The notes beneath the pieces were generated by a model. It saw only the letters and a program-made list of their open reading frames with translations, made no database searches and was not told the DNA's origin. From positions 1,036,059 to 1,100,058 of the forward strand of contig JAVKHP010000001.1 in NCBI GenBank assembly GCA_031459855.1: DNA of 64,000 bases. Reading direction: 5' to 3'. The first letter of the stretch is position 1. Every line of letters starts with the position of its first letter. Both the position numbers and the translations under genes were made by a program. The stretch is from Armatimonadota bacterium. GTDB lineage: Bacteria; Sysuimicrobiota; Sysuimicrobiia; Sysuimicrobiales; Humicultoraceae. This document shows, piece after piece, positions 29,502-59,452 of the stretch.

Positions 29502-30698
29502 TCAGACCGGCACGATCTGGTCGTCCAACCGCTTGCTCCGGCGCGTGATGACCTCGGGGGCCGTGCGGCCCACGATCACGGTGTCGTCCTGGCGGAACCC
29601 GCCCACGCCGTAGATGTAGATGCCCGGCTCGCAGGAGTAGACCTCCCGTTCCCGCAGGGGGCGGTAGGTGAACGGCATGTCCTCGGGAAACTCGTGGCCG
29701 GCGATGCCCATCCCGTGGCCGGTGCGGTGCATGATGTGCGCGCCGAACCCCGCCTGCTCGATGACCGCCTGCGCCGCTGCATCGACCTCGGCCACGGGCA
29801 CGCCGGCCACGAACTTCTCCAGCGCCGCCAGGTTGGCGGCGGTGGCCGCCTCGTAGGCGCGGCGCTGCAGGTCGGTGCGGGGCGGGCCGACGAACAGGGT
29901 GCGTTCGTTCTCGACGACGAGCCCGTTGAGCCGCACGATGATGATGTTGACCACGCCATCGCCGCGGTCCAGGCGCATGGCCGCGTCGGCGCCGGTACCG
30001 TGAGGTGCCGCCGACGCGGGGCCTGCCAGCGAGAAGACCCGCACCTCCAGCCGGTCGGCGGGGAAGCGCGCCGCGCCTTCCACGGCCATGCGGCGCGCGA
30101 CCTCCAGGTCCAGCTCGGCCACCAGCATGCCAGGCCGCACCAGCTCCATGTAGCGGTCCTGGCCCCAGTCGGTGAGGGCGGCAGCCAGGCGCATGATCTC
30201 CAGTTCCGCCGGGTCCTTCACCATGCGCATCTCGCGCAGGAAGCCCGCGGCGCTGGTGAACTCCACAGGTCCCGGCAGCCAGCGGCGCACGCCGCGGAAG
30301 GTGGCGATGCGGTCCGCCGCGTAGCGCCCGCGCCCGGCGCCGGCAGCGATCAGGCGGGTCGCCAGGAGCTCCTGCCAGCGGTCGCGGGTGTAGGTGCGCT
30401 GCGTCCACCGGGGGTGCTCGACGTACAGGGCGTAGTCGGACACGTAGAGCGTGCCGCGCTCGCGGGCCATCATGAGGTGGTGGGTCGACAGCTCGTTCAT
30501 GATCAGGAACGGTGGGGCGTCCACCGGCACCACCGCCGCCACCGGGCGCTCCCACGGCGCCACGTCCAGATGGAAGCCCGTCAGCATGTAGAAATGGTCG
30601 GGATCGCTCACCAGCAGTGCCTGGCAGCCCTCCTCGCGCAGCCACGCTCTGACGCGTTGATGACGGTCGGCGAAGACCTCCTGGGGGATGAACGGCAT
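29502..30698 (-). CDS. M24 (Xaa-Pro aminopeptidase/creatinase-like) protein with altered metal site
   Basis: A 398-residue pita-bread-fold protein of the M24 family: an N-terminal creatinase domain (HQRVRAWLREEGCQALLVSD, FYMLTGF) and a C-terminal catalytic domain (HRTGHGMGIAGHEFPED; YSCEPGIYIYGVGGFRQDDTV). The first two metal aspartates of active peptidases fall in a segment reading VNIIIVRLNGLVVENERTLF, so they are replaced, and the last ligand pair I-E-D is Q-D-D. One His and one Glu remain. It may work as a metal-independent creatinase-type hydrolase or have lost peptidase activity. An SD (GGAGG) precedes the ATG. The downstream-convergent methyltransferase is unrelated. Confidence 0.85.
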   Translation of the reverse strand: MPFIPQEVFADRHQRVRAWLREEGCQALLVSDPDHFYMLTGFHLDVAPWERPVAAVVPVDAPPFLIMNELSTHHLMMARERGTLYVSDYALYVEHPRWTQRTYTRDRWQELLATRLIAAGAGRGRYAADRIATFRGVRRWLPGPVEFTSAAGFLREMRMVKDPAELEIMRLAAALTDWGQDRYMELVRPGMLVAELDLEVARRMAVEGAARFPADRLEVRVFSLAGPASAAPHGTGADAAMRLDRGDGVVNIIIVRLNGLVVENERTLFVGPPRTDLQRRAYEAATAANLAALEKFVAGVPVAEVDAAAQAVIEQAGFGAHIMHRTGHGMGIAGHEFPEDMPFTYRPLREREVYSCEPGIYIYGVGGFRQDDTVIVGRTAPEVITRRSKRLDDQIVPV

Positions 30699-30867: not shown

Positions 30868-31821
30868 TCAGCTCGTCAGGCGCGGGTCCAGCGTGTCGCG
30901 CAGCCAGTCGCCCACGAGGTTGACGCCCAGGGCGGTGAGCACCAGCGCCAGCCCGGGGAACGTCGTGAGCCACCAGGCGTTGTAGATGTAGGTGCGGCCC
31001 TCGTTGAGCATGTTGCCCCACGACGCCGTCGGGGGCTGGACCCCGAAGCCCAGGAAACTGATGGCGGCCTCGGCCACGATGTACTGCGCCACCTGGAGCG
31101 ACGAGAGGACGATGACGGGCGTCCAGAGGTTGGGCAGCAGGTGGCGGAAGACGATGCGCAGGGCCGGCGCGCCCAGGGCCCGCGCCGCCTCGACGTACTC
31201 CAGCGTCTTGAGGGCGAGCACCTCGCCGCGCACCAGGCGCGCGTAGACCACCCAGCCCGTGATGATGAGGGTCAGGACGATGTTCTGCAGGCCGATCCCC
31301 AGGATGGCGTTCACCACCAGCGCCAGCAGGATGAAGGGGAACGAGAGCTGCACGTCGACCAGCCGCATCACCACCGCGTCGACGACCCCGCCCAGGTAGC
31401 CCGAGAGCAGGCCCAGGACGAGCCCCACCGCGCCGGCGATGCCCACGGTGACCAGGCCGATCACGAGCGAGATCCGCGTCCCGTACAGCACCCGCGTGTA
31501 CAGGTCTCGGCCCAGCTGGTCGGTCCCGAACCAGTGCGCGCGCGAGGGCGGGCGCAGCGAGCGGCCCAGGTCGGTGTCGACCGGGCCGTAGGGCGTCAAC
31601 ACCGGAGCCAGGAGGGCGGCCAGGACCACCAGGGCGACGATCGCGAGACCACACGCGCCGCCGCGCGAGAGGGCGATCCGGCGGCGCGGCCGGGCGGCGA
31701 ACGACGCTCGGGGAGCAATGGCGGGGACCGCTCCCCGCGCTGCCGGCCGGGCAGCCGACGACAGGCGCTCGGCCCGTGCGGCGAACGTCCCGGAGGGCGA
31801 TCGCTGGGGTCCGTCAGGCAT
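30868..31821 (-). CDS. Peptide/nickel-type ABC transporter permease, DppC-like
   Basis: A 317-residue inner-membrane permease. After about 45 basic and Ala-rich residues come the first helix, the HWFGTDQLGRDLYTRVLYG motif, and five further helices with the coupling loop YVEAARALGAPALRIVFRHL. The C-terminal GVNLVGDWLRDTLDPRL is typical. ATG 31821 overlaps the DppB stop by 8 bases. The M24-like gene lies 169 bases downstream on the same strand, possibly in the same operon. Confidence 0.93.
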   Translation of the reverse strand: MPDGPQRSPSGTFAARAERLSSAARPAARGAVPAIAPRASFAARPRRRIALSRGGACGLAIVALVVLAALLAPVLTPYGPVDTDLGRSLRPPSRAHWFGTDQLGRDLYTRVLYGTRISLVIGLVTVGIAGAVGLVLGLLSGYLGGVVDAVVMRLVDVQLSFPFILLALVVNAILGIGLQNIVLTLIITGWVVYARLVRGEVLALKTLEYVEAARALGAPALRIVFRHLLPNLWTPVIVLSSLQVAQYIVAEAAISFLGFGVQPPTASWGNMLNEGRTYIYNAWWLTTFPGLALVLTALGVNLVGDWLRDTLDPRLTS

Positions 31822-32758
31822 AGCGGACGCGCGGGTTGAGCCACGCATACGCCAGGTCGGCCAGCAGGTTGAGCACCGAGTAGGTTACCGCGGTCAGGAA
31901 GACGCCGACGAGGACCACGGGAAAGTCGCGGTTGAGCAGCGCCTGGACCAGGAACCGACCGACGCCGGGCCAGGCGAAGATCGTTTCGGTGATGACCGCG
32001 CCACCCAGGAGCTGGCCCAGCTGCAGCGCCAGCAGCGTGACGATCGGCAGGCTGGCGTTCTTCAGCGCGTGTCGGTAGAGCACGCGCCGAGGACCCAGGC
32101 CTTTGGCCCGCGCGGTGCGGACGTAGTCCTGGCCCAGCACGTCCAGCATCGTCGAGCGCGTCAGGCGGGCGAACCGCGCCGCCACGAACGCGGCCAGGGT
32201 GATGGACGGCAGGACGTAGTGCGCCCAGGTCCCCCGGCCCCCGGTGGGGAGCACTTTGAGCCACACCGCGAACACGTAGATCAGCATCAGCCCCAGCCAG
32301 AAGCCCGGGATGGCCTGTCCCAGCACGGTGGCACCGATGCTCAGGTGGTCGAACCAAGAGTTGCGGCGCGCGGCCGACAGCACGCCGACCGGGATGGCGA
32401 TGGCCAGCGCCAGGGCCATCGCCACGCCCGAGAGCGCCAGCGTGGCCGGGAACCGTTCCAGCACCAGGTCCAGGGCCGGTTCGCCCTGGCGCAAGGATCG
32501 GCCGAAGTCACCCCGCAGGGCGCCGCGCATGAAGCGGACGTACTGCACGGGCCACGGGTCGTTCAGGCCCAGGCGCTGGCGGAACTCCTCGATCTGCTTG
32601 GGGGTCGTGTCGGTCGGCAGGAACAGCTTGACCGGGTCGCCGGCCAGGAACTGCAGGCTGAAGACCGCGGTCAGCGCCAGGAAGACGACGACCGCAGCCT
32701 CCAGGAGGCGACGGATGACGAACTGCAGCATCGGACGGGGCGCGGCGGGGGAAGCCAT
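31814..32758 (-). CDS. Peptide/nickel-type ABC transporter permease, DppB-like
   Basis: A 314-residue inner-membrane permease with the DppB layout: first helix FVIRRLLEAAVVVFLALTAV, the LGLNDPWPVQYVRFM region, GDFGRSLRQGEPAL, the coupling loop [20 protein letters not shown] and RDFPVVLVGVF. Its ATG (32756-32758) lies in the loop of a perfect 13-bp hairpin at 32743-32774 whose 5' arm holds the GGGGGAAG SD. The binding-protein gene ends 90 bases upstream, so translation of this permease is probably held below that of the binding protein. Confidence 0.94.
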   Translation of the reverse strand: MASPAAPRPMLQFVIRRLLEAAVVVFLALTAVFSLQFLAGDPVKLFLPTDTTPKQIEEFRQRLGLNDPWPVQYVRFMRGALRGDFGRSLRQGEPALDLVLERFPATLALSGVAMALALAIAIPVGVLSAARRNSWFDHLSIGATVLGQAIPGFWLGLMLIYVFAVWLKVLPTGGRGTWAHYVLPSITLAAFVAARFARLTRSTMLDVLGQDYVRTARAKGLGPRRVLYRHALKNASLPIVTLLALQLGQLLGGAVITETIFAWPGVGRFLVQALLNRDFPVVLVGVFLTAVTYSVLNLLADLAYAWLNPRVRYA

Positions 32759-32774
32759 ATTGCTTCCCCCGCCG
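32743..32774 (-). promoter_or_regulatory. 13-bp perfect hairpin holding the permease start codon in its loop
   Basis: On the mRNA strand the 13-base arm CGGCGGGGGAAGC pairs perfectly with GCTTCCCCCGCCG; the 6-base loop AATATG ends in the dppB-like ATG. The SD is inside the stem. It sits 75 bases after the binding-protein stop. Likely effects are translation attenuation of the permeases and 3'-end protection of the binding-protein message. Confidence 0.7.
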
Positions 32775-32848
32775 CCGGCGGCGCTATCCGGCCGGCCGCA
32801 ACGGGGCCATCGGCGTGCGCCCGCGCCGCACCGTGCCAGCGCCCGGCT

Positions 32849-34366
32849 CTAGCGCCTGGCCCACGAGGCGTCGTGCAGGAAGATCTTCTCTGCCGGATGC
32901 GGGCGCCAGTTGACCCGCTTGTTCACCCCGTAGAGGTCGTGTTGCTGCCACAGGAAGATCCACGGCGCCTCGGTGTACAGCATGACCTGGATACGGTACC
33001 AGGCCCGTCGCCGCTTCTCCGGGTCGACGACCGGCAGGACCTTGTTGATCTCCTGCGTGAGCGCGGGGGTGCCAAAGCCGCTGTACGTCCGCTCGGGCCG
33101 GAACAGCTCGGCGATGGTGCCCTGGGCTTCCAGGGCCGGCCCCCACCCCAGGTAGAACATCTCGCCGGTGCGGCGGTTGATGATCTTGTCCAGGTGCGTG
33201 CCCCACTCGTTCACCACCACGCGTACCTTGATCCCGATGCGGCCCAGGTAGGCCGCGATCGCCTCGGCCGCTTCCTTGTCGAGGGGGTACCGGCCCGAGG
33301 GCGAGTCGAGGGTGAACTCCAGCCGCGTCGGATCGTAGCCGGCCTCCTTGATCAGCTGCACCGCCCGCTGGGGGTCGTAGGGATAGGGCTTCAGGTTGGG
33401 GTTGACGTCCTGGTTGAGGGCCGACAGCGCGCCGGGGATGCGGGTGGCGCGGCCCTTGAACAGGTTGGCGATGATCTCGTCGACGTTCACGGCGTAGTTG
33501 AGGGCCTGCCGGACCCGCCGGTCCTGCATGGGGCCGGGCTTGAGGTTCACCAGGGCCACGTAGTTGATGCGCGACGACGCCACGCCACGGACCTCGGCGA
33601 TGCCGCTGCGGTTCACCTGGTCGACGGCCACGGGGGGCACGTCCTTGACGATGTCCGCCTCGCCCGCCAGCAGGGCCGCCAGGCGGGCGCTGAAGTCGGG
33701 GATGAAGCGGAACTCCACCCGGCGGATCGCCGGAGCGCCGTTCCAGTAGGTCGGGTTGGCCTCGAGCACCAGCCGCTCGTCGCGATCCCAGCGCACGAAC
33801 CGGTAGGGGCCGGCGCCGATGGGCTGCCGGTTGGCCTGCTCGTTGCCGACCTGCCGGATGTACTTCGCGTTGTGCACGGTGAAGTCCACCAGCCAGAAGC
33901 GGAGGATCGGCGCAGGCTCCTTGGTCTTGATGCGGACCGTCAGCGGGTCGACGACCTCGACGCTGTCGACGAACGAGAACCGCGGCCGGTAGTGCGACTG
34001 GTTGCGCGGGTCGAGCAGCCACTCGATGGTGGACTTCACGTCCTCGGCCGTGAGCGGGTCGCCGTTGTGGAAGCGCACGTTGGGGCGCAACTTGACGATC
34101 CACGTGAGGTCGTCCGGGGTCTGGGGCAGCTCGGCGGCCAGCGACGGCTTGATCCGTGGCGGCATGCCGTCCCAGAAGTACAGCCGGTCGTAGATGTTCA
34201 TCTGCTGGACGTTGGTCGTCCAGTCCACGATGTGCATCGCCAGCAGACTGCGGGGTTCGGCGCCCAGGGCGACGACCAGCGGGCGCTCCTGGGCCTGCCC
34301 CGTCGGGGGCAGGCTGCCTGCCAGCGCCAGGAGCAGGGCCAGCAGTCCCACCGCGATTCGGCCCAT
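32849..34366 (-). CDS. Peptide/nickel-type ABC transporter substrate-binding protein (SBP family 5)
   Basis: A 505-residue family 5 receptor. The signal peptide is MGRIAVGLLALLLALAGSLP with cleavage near GQA. Mature marks are LVVALGAEPRSLLAMHIVD, LRPNVRFHNGDPLTAEDV (the family signature), ANPTYWNGAPAIRRVEF and RRVRQALNYAVNVDEII. A GGAGGG SD is 8 bases before the ATG. With the two permeases downstream it forms an SBP-DppB-DppC operon without ATPases. The adjacent M24-like gene hints at peptide-type ligands, but the SBP family also binds nickel, opines and sugars. Confidence 0.94.
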   Translation of the reverse strand: MGRIAVGLLALLLALAGSLPPTGQAQERPLVVALGAEPRSLLAMHIVDWTTNVQQMNIYDRLYFWDGMPPRIKPSLAAELPQTPDDLTWIVKLRPNVRFHNGDPLTAEDVKSTIEWLLDPRNQSHYRPRFSFVDSVEVVDPLTVRIKTKEPAPILRFWLVDFTVHNAKYIRQVGNEQANRQPIGAGPYRFVRWDRDERLVLEANPTYWNGAPAIRRVEFRFIPDFSARLAALLAGEADIVKDVPPVAVDQVNRSGIAEVRGVASSRINYVALVNLKPGPMQDRRVRQALNYAVNVDEIIANLFKGRATRIPGALSALNQDVNPNLKPYPYDPQRAVQLIKEAGYDPTRLEFTLDSPSGRYPLDKEAAEAIAAYLGRIGIKVRVVVNEWGTHLDKIINRRTGEMFYLGWGPALEAQGTIAELFRPERTYSGFGTPALTQEINKVLPVVDPEKRRRAWYRIQVMLYTEAPWIFLWQQHDLYGVNKRVNWRPHPAEKIFLHDASWARR

Positions 34367-57148: not shown

Positions 57149-58015
57149 CTAGCCCCCGCGCCCGTCGAAGAGCCCGCCAGCGCGTGCTACCAGTACCCCC
57201 GCGACCAGCAGCGAGGCGACGATACGCGCCAGCGTCGGCGTGAAGAAGATCGAGACCACCCCGTCCACCAGCCCGACCAGGAACGCCGCGACCAGCGTCC
57301 CGCCAAGGCGTCCCAGGCCGCCGATGGTCACCACCATGAACGAGAGGAGTAGCGCATCCAGACCCATGAGGTAGTGGGCTTGCTGCACGGGGACGACCAG
57401 CACGCCCGCCACAGCGGCCAGCGCCGCGCCCAGGGCGAAGGCGGCGCTGTAGACCCGATGCACGGGCACGCCGAACGCCTGGGCCACCTCCGGGTCCTGC
57501 TGCGTTGCGCGCATGTACAGCCCCAGTGTCGTGGCACTGACCAGCCGCCAGGTGCCAAGCAGGACCAGCCCGGCCAGCGCGGCCGCCACCAGCTTGTAGC
57601 GCGAGTAGCCAAACCAGGGGAACTCGACGACCCCCGCCAGCGGCGGGGCCACCGCCCGCGCTTCCGGGCCGTAGAGACCCAGGATCAGCTGCTGGAGGAT
57701 GTAGAGCAGCCCGATGGTGGCCACGATGGTGGCCTCGGGCGCATACCGAACGGGCCGCAGGACCAGGCGATCCGCCGCCGCGGCGATACCGGCGACGAGC
57801 ACGGGGGCCACGGCGACCGCGGCCAGGAAGCTGCCCGTGGCGGAGGTGACGACCCAGGCCAGCACCGCGCCCAGCATGAAGAACTCGCCATGCGCGACGT
57901 TCACGATGCGCATGACGCCAAAGACCAGCGACAGCCCCACCGCGGTCAGGGCCAGCAGCAACCCCGAGACGGTGCCCTCCAGCAGGGCGAGGACGATCTG
58001 CCCGACGGGGGTCAC
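57149..58015 (-). CDS. livH: Branched-chain-type ABC transporter permease, LivH-like (second system)
   Basis: A 288-residue permease with about eight helices. SGLLLALTAVGLSLVFGVMR and NVAHGEFFMLGAVLA are the family start; the coupling loop reads MRATQQDPEVAQAFGVPVHR. GTG 58015 was chosen as the only initiator before the first helix. The receptor gene ends 138 bases upstream. Confidence 0.93.
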   Translation of the reverse strand: MTPVGQIVLALLEGTVSGLLLALTAVGLSLVFGVMRIVNVAHGEFFMLGAVLAWVVTSATGSFLAAVAVAPVLVAGIAAAADRLVLRPVRYAPEATIVATIGLLYILQQLILGLYGPEARAVAPPLAGVVEFPWFGYSRYKLVAAALAGLVLLGTWRLVSATTLGLYMRATQQDPEVAQAFGVPVHRVYSAAFALGAALAAVAGVLVVPVQQAHYLMGLDALLLSFMVVTIGGLGRLGGTLVAAFLVGLVDGVVSIFFTPTLARIVASLLVAGVLVARAGGLFDGRGG

Positions 58016-58153
58016 GGATACGCGCGCGACGCGGCCCGCCTGCGGGCACGCCCCGGCAGGCCACCCCGCGCCGGCCGGCGGAGGCCCGGGCCCCCCGGCC
58101 GCCGGGTTCGCGCCCCCGCCGTCCGCAACGCGCCGGACAACGGTCGGGGCGGG

Positions 58154-59452
58154 CTACAGCGGCTGCTTGGTGTAGTCCGCCTCGGGCGGGTACATGCCGT
58201 CGTCGATCGTCGTCCGGTGCACCACCTTGAGTTTCTTCCCACGCACCTGCGAGACGAACTGCTGGCCGAAGACCTGGTGCAGGCGGCCGACGAACCGTTT
58301 CGGCCCCTGCGGGTGGCCCAACCCCTCGTCGAACTTCTCGGTCTTCTCAAGGGTCTCGATGAAGGCGCGGTAGTCCTTGGGGCTCTTGTAGCCGCTCTTC
58401 TCCACGATCTCCTTGATGACGAACAGCGTCTCCCACACCCCGAACATGTGCGAGTACGTCGAGACGTCCTTCGGGTCGCTCTTGCTGGCGCCGTTGGCGT
58501 CGACACCCACCGCGTCCCGGAACCGTTTCTCCCACTGGGTGTTGTACTCGCCCGCGTAGCGGGGGAAGGCCTCCCAGAGATACGATCCGTCCAGGTACTC
58601 CAGCCCGGGGCTGCCGATGTCGACGCCCTCCAGCGAGTCGATGAAGCCGAAGAGCTTGGGCTTGCGCCGGCCGAAGTGCTCGCCCATCTCCTTGACGAAG
58701 GTGAGCACGCCCGGCCCGACCATGACGTGGTAGACCACGTCGGCCGTCCGCGGGATCTTGGGGAAGTACTTGGTGAACGAGGTCTCGGTGGGCGGAATGG
58801 GCACCAGCGCGACGATCTCGCCTCCCTGCCGGCGGGCGGCCGCCCCGAAGAAGTCGCGGTGGTCGTACCCGAACGCGTAGTCGGGGAAGACCATGGCGAT
58901 GCGCTTGCCCAGGTTCTTGACGATCCACGGCGCCAGGGCGGTGACCTGCGCGCGCACGTCGGTGATGCCCGGCTGGAACGTGTACCGGTTCAGCGTGCCC
59001 GAGGCCACGTGGTACCCTTCGCTCACCACCAGGTAGGGGATCTTCAGCTCGCCGGCCCGCGGCGCTGCGGCGATCACGACATGGGAGAAGAGGGTGCCGA
59101 AGATGAACTCCACCTTGTGCTGCTGGGCCAGCTTCTCGACCACCTCGGTGCCGCGCTTGGGGTCGGTGCCGTCGTCCTCGGCGATCAGCTCCACGGGCCG
59201 GCCGCCGATGCCGCCCATGCCGTTGATGGTGCGCACCGCTGCGGCGGCCGTGCGCTCGTACCACTTGCCGTAGACGGCGCCGATACCCGTGCGGTGCACC
59301 TGAAAGCCGATCTTCAGCGGTGGCGCCCCGGTGGCCTGCGCGTAGACGTAGGGGAGGTCGACGAGGCGTCCCCACCGGCTGACCACGCCGGCGCCGGCCA
59401 GCGCCCCGGCGGCCTTCAACGCCTGTCGGCGTGTGAGCTTCCCGCCTGGCAT
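58154..59452 (-). CDS. Branched-chain-type ABC receptor with Tat signal (second system)
   Basis: A 432-residue LivJ-type receptor. The N-terminus LTRRQALKAAGALAGAGVV carries a twin-arginine motif followed by a mild hydrophobic stretch, so export is probably by the Tat pathway. Mature marks are IGFQVHRTGIGAVYGKWYE, VELIAEDDGTDPKRGTEVVE, FIFGTLFSHVVIAAA and GYDHRDFFGAAARRQGG. ATG 59452 has an AAGGGGGG SD. The gene order receptor-livH-livM-livG-livF is complete. The ligand is unknown; the two LIV systems have dissimilar receptors. Confidence 0.92.
   Translation of the reverse strand: MPGGKLTRRQALKAAGALAGAGVVSRWGRLVDLPYVYAQATGAPPLKIGFQVHRTGIGAVYGKWYERTAAAAVRTINGMGGIGGRPVELIAEDDGTDPKRGTEVVEKLAQQHKVEFIFGTLFSHVVIAAAPRAGELKIPYLVVSEGYHVASGTLNRYTFQPGITDVRAQVTALAPWIVKNLGKRIAMVFPDYAFGYDHRDFFGAAARRQGGEIVALVPIPPTETSFTKYFPKIPRTADVVYHVMVGPGVLTFVKEMGEHFGRRKPKLFGFIDSLEGVDIGSPGLEYLDGSYLWEAFPRYAGEYNTQWEKRFRDAVGVDANGASKSDPKDVSTYSHMFGVWETLFVIKEIVEKSGYKSPKDYRAFIETLEKTEKFDEGLGHPQGPKRFVGRLHQVFGQQFVSQVRGKKLKVVHRTTIDDGMYPPEADYTKQPL

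Follow-up and report, generated by a model that had tools for sequence, protein, structure and literature searches.

A perfect 14-bp hairpin with a 6-nt loop lies between a solute-binding protein gene and the following permease gene on the minus strand of the 64,000-nt stretch of DNA analysed here (the window). We consider it, with a probability of about 0.58, to be a 3' protective intercistronic structure of the binding-protein mRNA, of the malE-malF type, which most likely raises the amount of binding protein over that of permease and perhaps also acts as a partial terminator. The structure, its position, its enrichment at junctions of this kind, its persistence despite sequence change and its lack of a U-tract were all read directly from the genomes compared.

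Organization of the operon and of the intercistronic hairpin

The first gene of the operon (32849..34366, minus strand; gene call) encodes a peptide-type solute-binding protein of 505 aa (PF00496 SBP_bac_5, E 8.1e-85) and ends with a TAG stop at 32851-32849, so that a binding-protein gene is indeed found upstream of the hairpin, as the original prediction had it. A 117-nt intercistronic region (32732..32848, minus strand) extends from this stop to the conserved start of a called dppB-type permease gene (31814..32731, minus strand; 305 aa, N-terminus MLQFVIRRLL; PF19300, then PF00528). Further downstream on the same strand are a dppC-type permease ORF with a putative start (30868..31848; PF00528 and PF12911), for which the gene caller sets the start at 31629, and an M24 peptidase gene (29502..30698; PF00557 and PF01321) that is likely the last gene of the operon. 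Promoters and U-tract terminators were sought between 30800 and 34800 and none was found.

The whole hairpin spans 32742-32775 (plus-strand coordinates) and is read from the minus strand. It is composed of a G-rich 5' arm (32762..32775, minus strand; GCGGCGGGGGAAGC in the mRNA), the loop AATATG (32756..32761, minus strand) and a 3' arm (32742..32755, minus strand; GCTTCCCCCGCCGC in the mRNA) that is followed by GCCCCGTCCG; the tail after the stem, GCCCCGTC, holds no U-tract. The stem starts 73 nt past the binding-protein stop and ends 10 nt before the conserved dppB ATG. A perfect hairpin of 13 bp had been predicted at this site; the perfect inverted repeat is present but its stem is one pair longer, and the loop was confirmed to end in an ATG in frame with dppB, as described.

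Folded alone, the hairpin has a free energy of -32.9 kcal/mol, and when the surrounding 181 nt are folded with it, the minimum-energy structure keeps 12 of its stem pairs. Taken as a whole, those 181 nt have a z of only -1.9 against shuffles, indicating that the hairpin signal is local. No longer perfect hairpin (loop 3-10) occurs anywhere in the 64-kb window, dinucleotide-shuffled versions of which contain a mean of 0.033 hairpins of at least 14 bp (60 shuffles), and the score of the hairpin was reached by none of 50 shuffles of its own gap. A search of Rfam 15 returned nothing at the gathering score, the only matches being mir-1538 (19.6 of 78 bits) and mir-572 (19.4 of 80 bits).

The start codon of dppB

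Two candidate starts were considered for dppB, the ATG in the hairpin loop (32758) and the ATG at 32731-32729, 27 nt further downstream. Position 1 of the PF19300 profile aligns with residue 10 of the long ORF, which is the ATG at 32731, and a gene caller trained on the codon usage of this genome also starts dppB at 32731. An ATG, GTG or TTG is present at that codon in 54 of 64 homologs (47 ATG, 4 TTG and 3 GTG), these being the ones, from 80 loci listed, that align from the first residue of the short form onward. Upstream of the conserved start, no in-frame ATG, GTG or TTG occurs in any of the three orthologs whose gap is complete (in genomes G006, G002 and G010). Counting against 32731, a purine run (GGGGGA, in the 5' arm) stands before the loop ATG whereas no clear Shine-Dalgarno sequence precedes 32731, nor is one clear in the three orthologs. 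Because the Pfam N-terminus, the gene caller, the homolog starts and the orthologs favour 32731, the loop ATG is unlikely to be the true start of dppB, contrary to what had been claimed.

The same evidence bears on the proposal that dppB starts at the loop ATG and that the stem shuts the ribosome site until a ligand, a protein or heat intervenes. The in-frame loop ATG and the GGGGGA run 5' of it would suit such a switch, but the orthologs have no counterpart of the loop ATG and no in-frame start ahead of their conserved one, and in the window the conserved start lies past the hairpin. A stem as stable as -32.9 kcal/mol would, moreover, be expected to nearly abolish translation initiation. A start-in-loop switch is therefore very improbable, and no sign of the suggested response to a protein or metabolite was seen: the lack of any Rfam match at gathering level speaks against a riboswitch or other known RNA, and the arm sequences are not conserved. 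Correcting the start site removes a likely mis-set codon that would suggest a false switch.

Hairpins at other binding-protein/dppB junctions

The survey covered dppB loci from five genomes, that of the window (G000), G006, G008, G002 and G010, with an upstream gene resembling the binding protein of the window. From 91 loci, 7 without a usable co-directional upstream gene were dropped (L135, L211, L215, L227, L232, L244 and L191); of the remaining 84, 13 were left out for an upstream gene unlike this binding protein, and of the resulting 71 gaps, 10 shorter than 35 nt were left out, yielding 61 gaps. The stretches L186-L188 stand outside all counts, and a hairpin was counted when it scored at least 30. 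Such hairpins were detected in 31 of the 61 gaps of at least 35 nt (G000 11/22, G006 11/17, G008 3/11, G002 5/10 and G010 1/1).

Other gaps of G000 served as a control, taken from 16 stretches of 20 kb plus the window (a 384-kb sample). Among gaps of 35-150 nt, hairpins were present in 9 of 18 binding-protein/dppB gaps against 2 of 75 other co-directional gaps (Fisher p = 2e-6), and among gaps of 35-350 nt in 11 of 22 against 8 of 119 (Fisher p = 4e-6); the 75 and 119 control gaps leave out three binding-protein genes, the focal one among them. Divergent gaps had none (0/4 at 35-150 nt, 0/21 at 35-350 nt). Across the survey, a hairpin was present within the first 150 nt after 32 of 71 binding-protein stops and after 9 of 84 dppB stops. 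Half of the comparable G000 gaps are nevertheless without such a hairpin, which counts against the protective reading.

The two control hits set aside follow binding-protein genes of other classes, one LivK-like (window 58154) and one PnrA-like (L145). At 58072-58125 the window holds a longer, imperfect G+C hairpin, between the LivK-type gene (58154-59452) and a BPD_transp_2 permease gene (57149-58015), and the hairpin pattern may extend to other importer classes. The G000 genome (3.19 Mb) invests heavily in peptide-type importers, with 66 DppB matches, of which about 33 are near-full-length paralogs.

Of the 31 hairpins, 26 start at most 36 nt from the binding-protein stop, the focal hairpin, at 73 nt, being further away than most, a point against the protective reading. 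Their distance to the permease start varies between 5 and 228 nt; directly after the stem, all 31 have 0-3 T within 8 nt (mean 0.87), and G outnumbers C in the 5' arm of 29. The G-rich 5' arm argues for an element acting as RNA and not for a symmetric DNA site, and taken together the stop-linked position, the few T and the G-rich 5' arm favour an RNA element linked to the place where the binding-protein message ends over a translation-start device or a DNA operator. A hairpin ending 10 nt upstream of the conserved ATG could still hinder dppB translation, whatever its effect on decay, and 16 of the 31 hairpins end 5-18 nt before the permease start. The wide spread of start distances beside a tight stop distance, together with the location of the bases adjoining the start outside the stem, renders this hindrance improbable.

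The focal hairpin might also have arisen as a chance palindrome, or be a DNA operator or a mobile repeat, given that a G+C content of 72% eases long stems. The failure of shuffled gaps to reach its score, the enrichment at one kind of junction, the sequence turnover between orthologs described below and the G-rich strand bias stand against all three, leaving them hardly credible as a group. The repeat element was ruled out as the stem with its surroundings occurs once in the genome, and the operator was ruled out by the sequence turnover and the G-rich 5' arm.

Conservation of the focal junction

Orthologs of the focal dppB were identified in 5 of 11 genomes of the family, that of the window included, and the closest named genome is Armatimonadota bacterium O5J2P.bin.109 (JAVHMA010000038.1, 89%). 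The ortholog proteins of G006, G002 and G010 are 87-90% identical, and all three complete gaps hold a strong hairpin of 11-13 bp (-26.0 to -29.7 kcal/mol) of differing sequence. The G010 stem is a perfect 13 bp, GGGCGAGCCCGTC, with the loop GGTCT; the G002 stem is the same with one A-U pair changed to G-U; and the G006 stem has 11 bp, GGGGCCTGCCC, with the loop GCGC. None of the three loops (GCGC, GGCCT and GGTCT) contains an ATG. The comparison with relatives called for earlier thus finds the hairpin retained in every complete ortholog gap, with arm sequences that are not conserved. The G008 contig (L191:1-30) starts within the 5' arm of a stem matching that of G010, so that only a partial hairpin is seen, and its assembly may have broken at the stem. 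In all four orthologous gaps that can be read (window 32775-32790; L189, L190 and L192), the motif GATAG is found at or just ahead of the stem, although the stems differ.

Across 54 rows of orthologous junction pairs, a few of them duplicated, the hairpin was present on both sides in 24, on one side in 22 and on neither in 8. Where gap identity was at least 0.5, 161 stem pairs were unchanged, 19 double compensated, 18 single compensated, 51 broken and 20 gapped, figures that include cross-genus rows which we take to be mostly misaligned; the poor alignment of the gaps between genera leaves no usable base-by-base covariation signal there. For the five hairpin pairs with counted stems within genus g3, the corresponding numbers were 53 unchanged, 2 double compensated, 2 single compensated, 1 broken and 1 gapped.

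Among nine distant homologs (L033-L041; 56-63% identical), only three had a hairpin scoring at least 26 within 130 nt before the start, and this frequent absence counts against the protective reading. Two loci of family f4, which belongs to the same taxonomic order (L027 and L028), have a junction hairpin with the stem AAGGGGCCGGC about 35-66 nt upstream of dppB and then T-rich sequence, a tail that resembles an intrinsic terminator and is absent in the family of the window.

Probable protection of the binding-protein message and possible termination

From these comparisons we infer an effect of the hairpin on RNA decay and on the protein ratio. Once the binding-protein gene is transcribed, the RNA would fold into the 14-bp G+C stem without a U-tract; the longer binding-protein/permease message would be cut or would end further downstream, and 3'-to-5' exonucleases such as PNPase would be halted at the stem. 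The binding-protein message would be kept while the permease part decays, leaving the receptor in excess, with dppB translated from the ATG 10 nt past the stem and the loop ATG being a chance occurrence. PNPase, RNase E/G and RNase Y are all encoded in the genome of the window. The earlier suggestion that the structure keeps the permease low relative to the receptor and protects the receptor message is in line with the junction enrichment, the persistence among orthologs and the position after the stop, and it probably holds.

The same outcome could be reached by a partial internal transcription terminator, at which some of the transcribing polymerases would stop once past the binding-protein gene, yielding less permease mRNA. 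Place and outcome would then match the internal terminators of Clostridia, as described in the part of that study covered here (PMC9045158), and the f4 junction hairpins with their T-rich tails also fit. In 384 kb of G000 only 2 U-tract hairpins were found at gene ends, against 9 inside genes; since canonical intrinsic terminators thus seem nearly absent, this lineage may terminate differently, U-less termination would be possible, and Rho is also encoded in the genome of the window. However, all 31 hairpins have at most three T in the 8 nt after the stem and no U-rich tract, and convergent gene ends, which need terminators, seldom carry similar hairpins (1/13 at 35-150 nt, 4/23 at 35-350 nt). 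In the covered portion of the clostridial work, the one stem tested without its U-tract failed to terminate (PMC9045158), which weighs against simple intrinsic termination here. Partial termination is consequently a possible but doubtful account of the hairpin, and protection of the binding-protein message is the reading we retain.

A broader extension can be put forward tentatively, in which perfect hairpins without a U-tract, with a G-rich 5' and a C-rich 3' arm, would be a lineage-wide device setting receptor-to-permease ratios in dozens of peptide importers, their stem sequence being repeatedly renewed while their place is kept; such a device may combine a U-less terminator with a decay barrier. 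Dozens of hairpins with matched hairpin-free gaps provide a natural panel for relating stem strength to mRNA ratios without U-tracts.

Comparison with known systems

The literature on hairpins between binding-protein and permease genes, covered in part, offered precedents from E. coli and Clostridia and nothing on the present lineage, and a search for start codons in hairpin loops returned nothing usable. A hairpin design that favours receptor over permease is thus already known in bacteria, and the focal hairpin adds a new member, extending a stoichiometry device of E. coli and Clostridia to a family of 72% G+C with more than 30 dppB copies in one genome.

In selective RNA processing and stabilization operons, stem-loops at the 3' ends of chosen genes set transcript ratios, according to the portions of two reports covered here (PMC4423207, PMC8219983); the hairpins described above resemble them in lying at gene 3' ends and may likewise set transcript ratios. 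In cellulolytic Clostridia, internal transcription terminators are located downstream of binding-protein genes, and the sections of that report considered here (PMC9045158) describe, as in the window, a stem-loop with a long G+C stem between a 5'-end binding-protein gene and permease genes. The clostridial terminators keep some U-rich tract, whereas the present hairpins are almost T-free after the stem.

The closest likeness is with E. coli. Of 34 decay-regulated operons with a stabilised 5' gene, 26 have a stable hairpin without a U-tract ending the stable part, and in five ABC importers, malE included, the stabilised gene is always the binding protein, as stated in the part of the study covered here (PMC5927463). 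Both the malE-malF type and the focal junction place a stable hairpin of conserved structure behind the binding-protein gene of an ABC importer, lack a U-tract and occur together with PNPase. They differ in that, in the same portion of the E. coli study, the structure mostly lies within the downstream coding sequence (17 of 26 cases; PMC5927463), whereas here it lies in the gap between the two genes.
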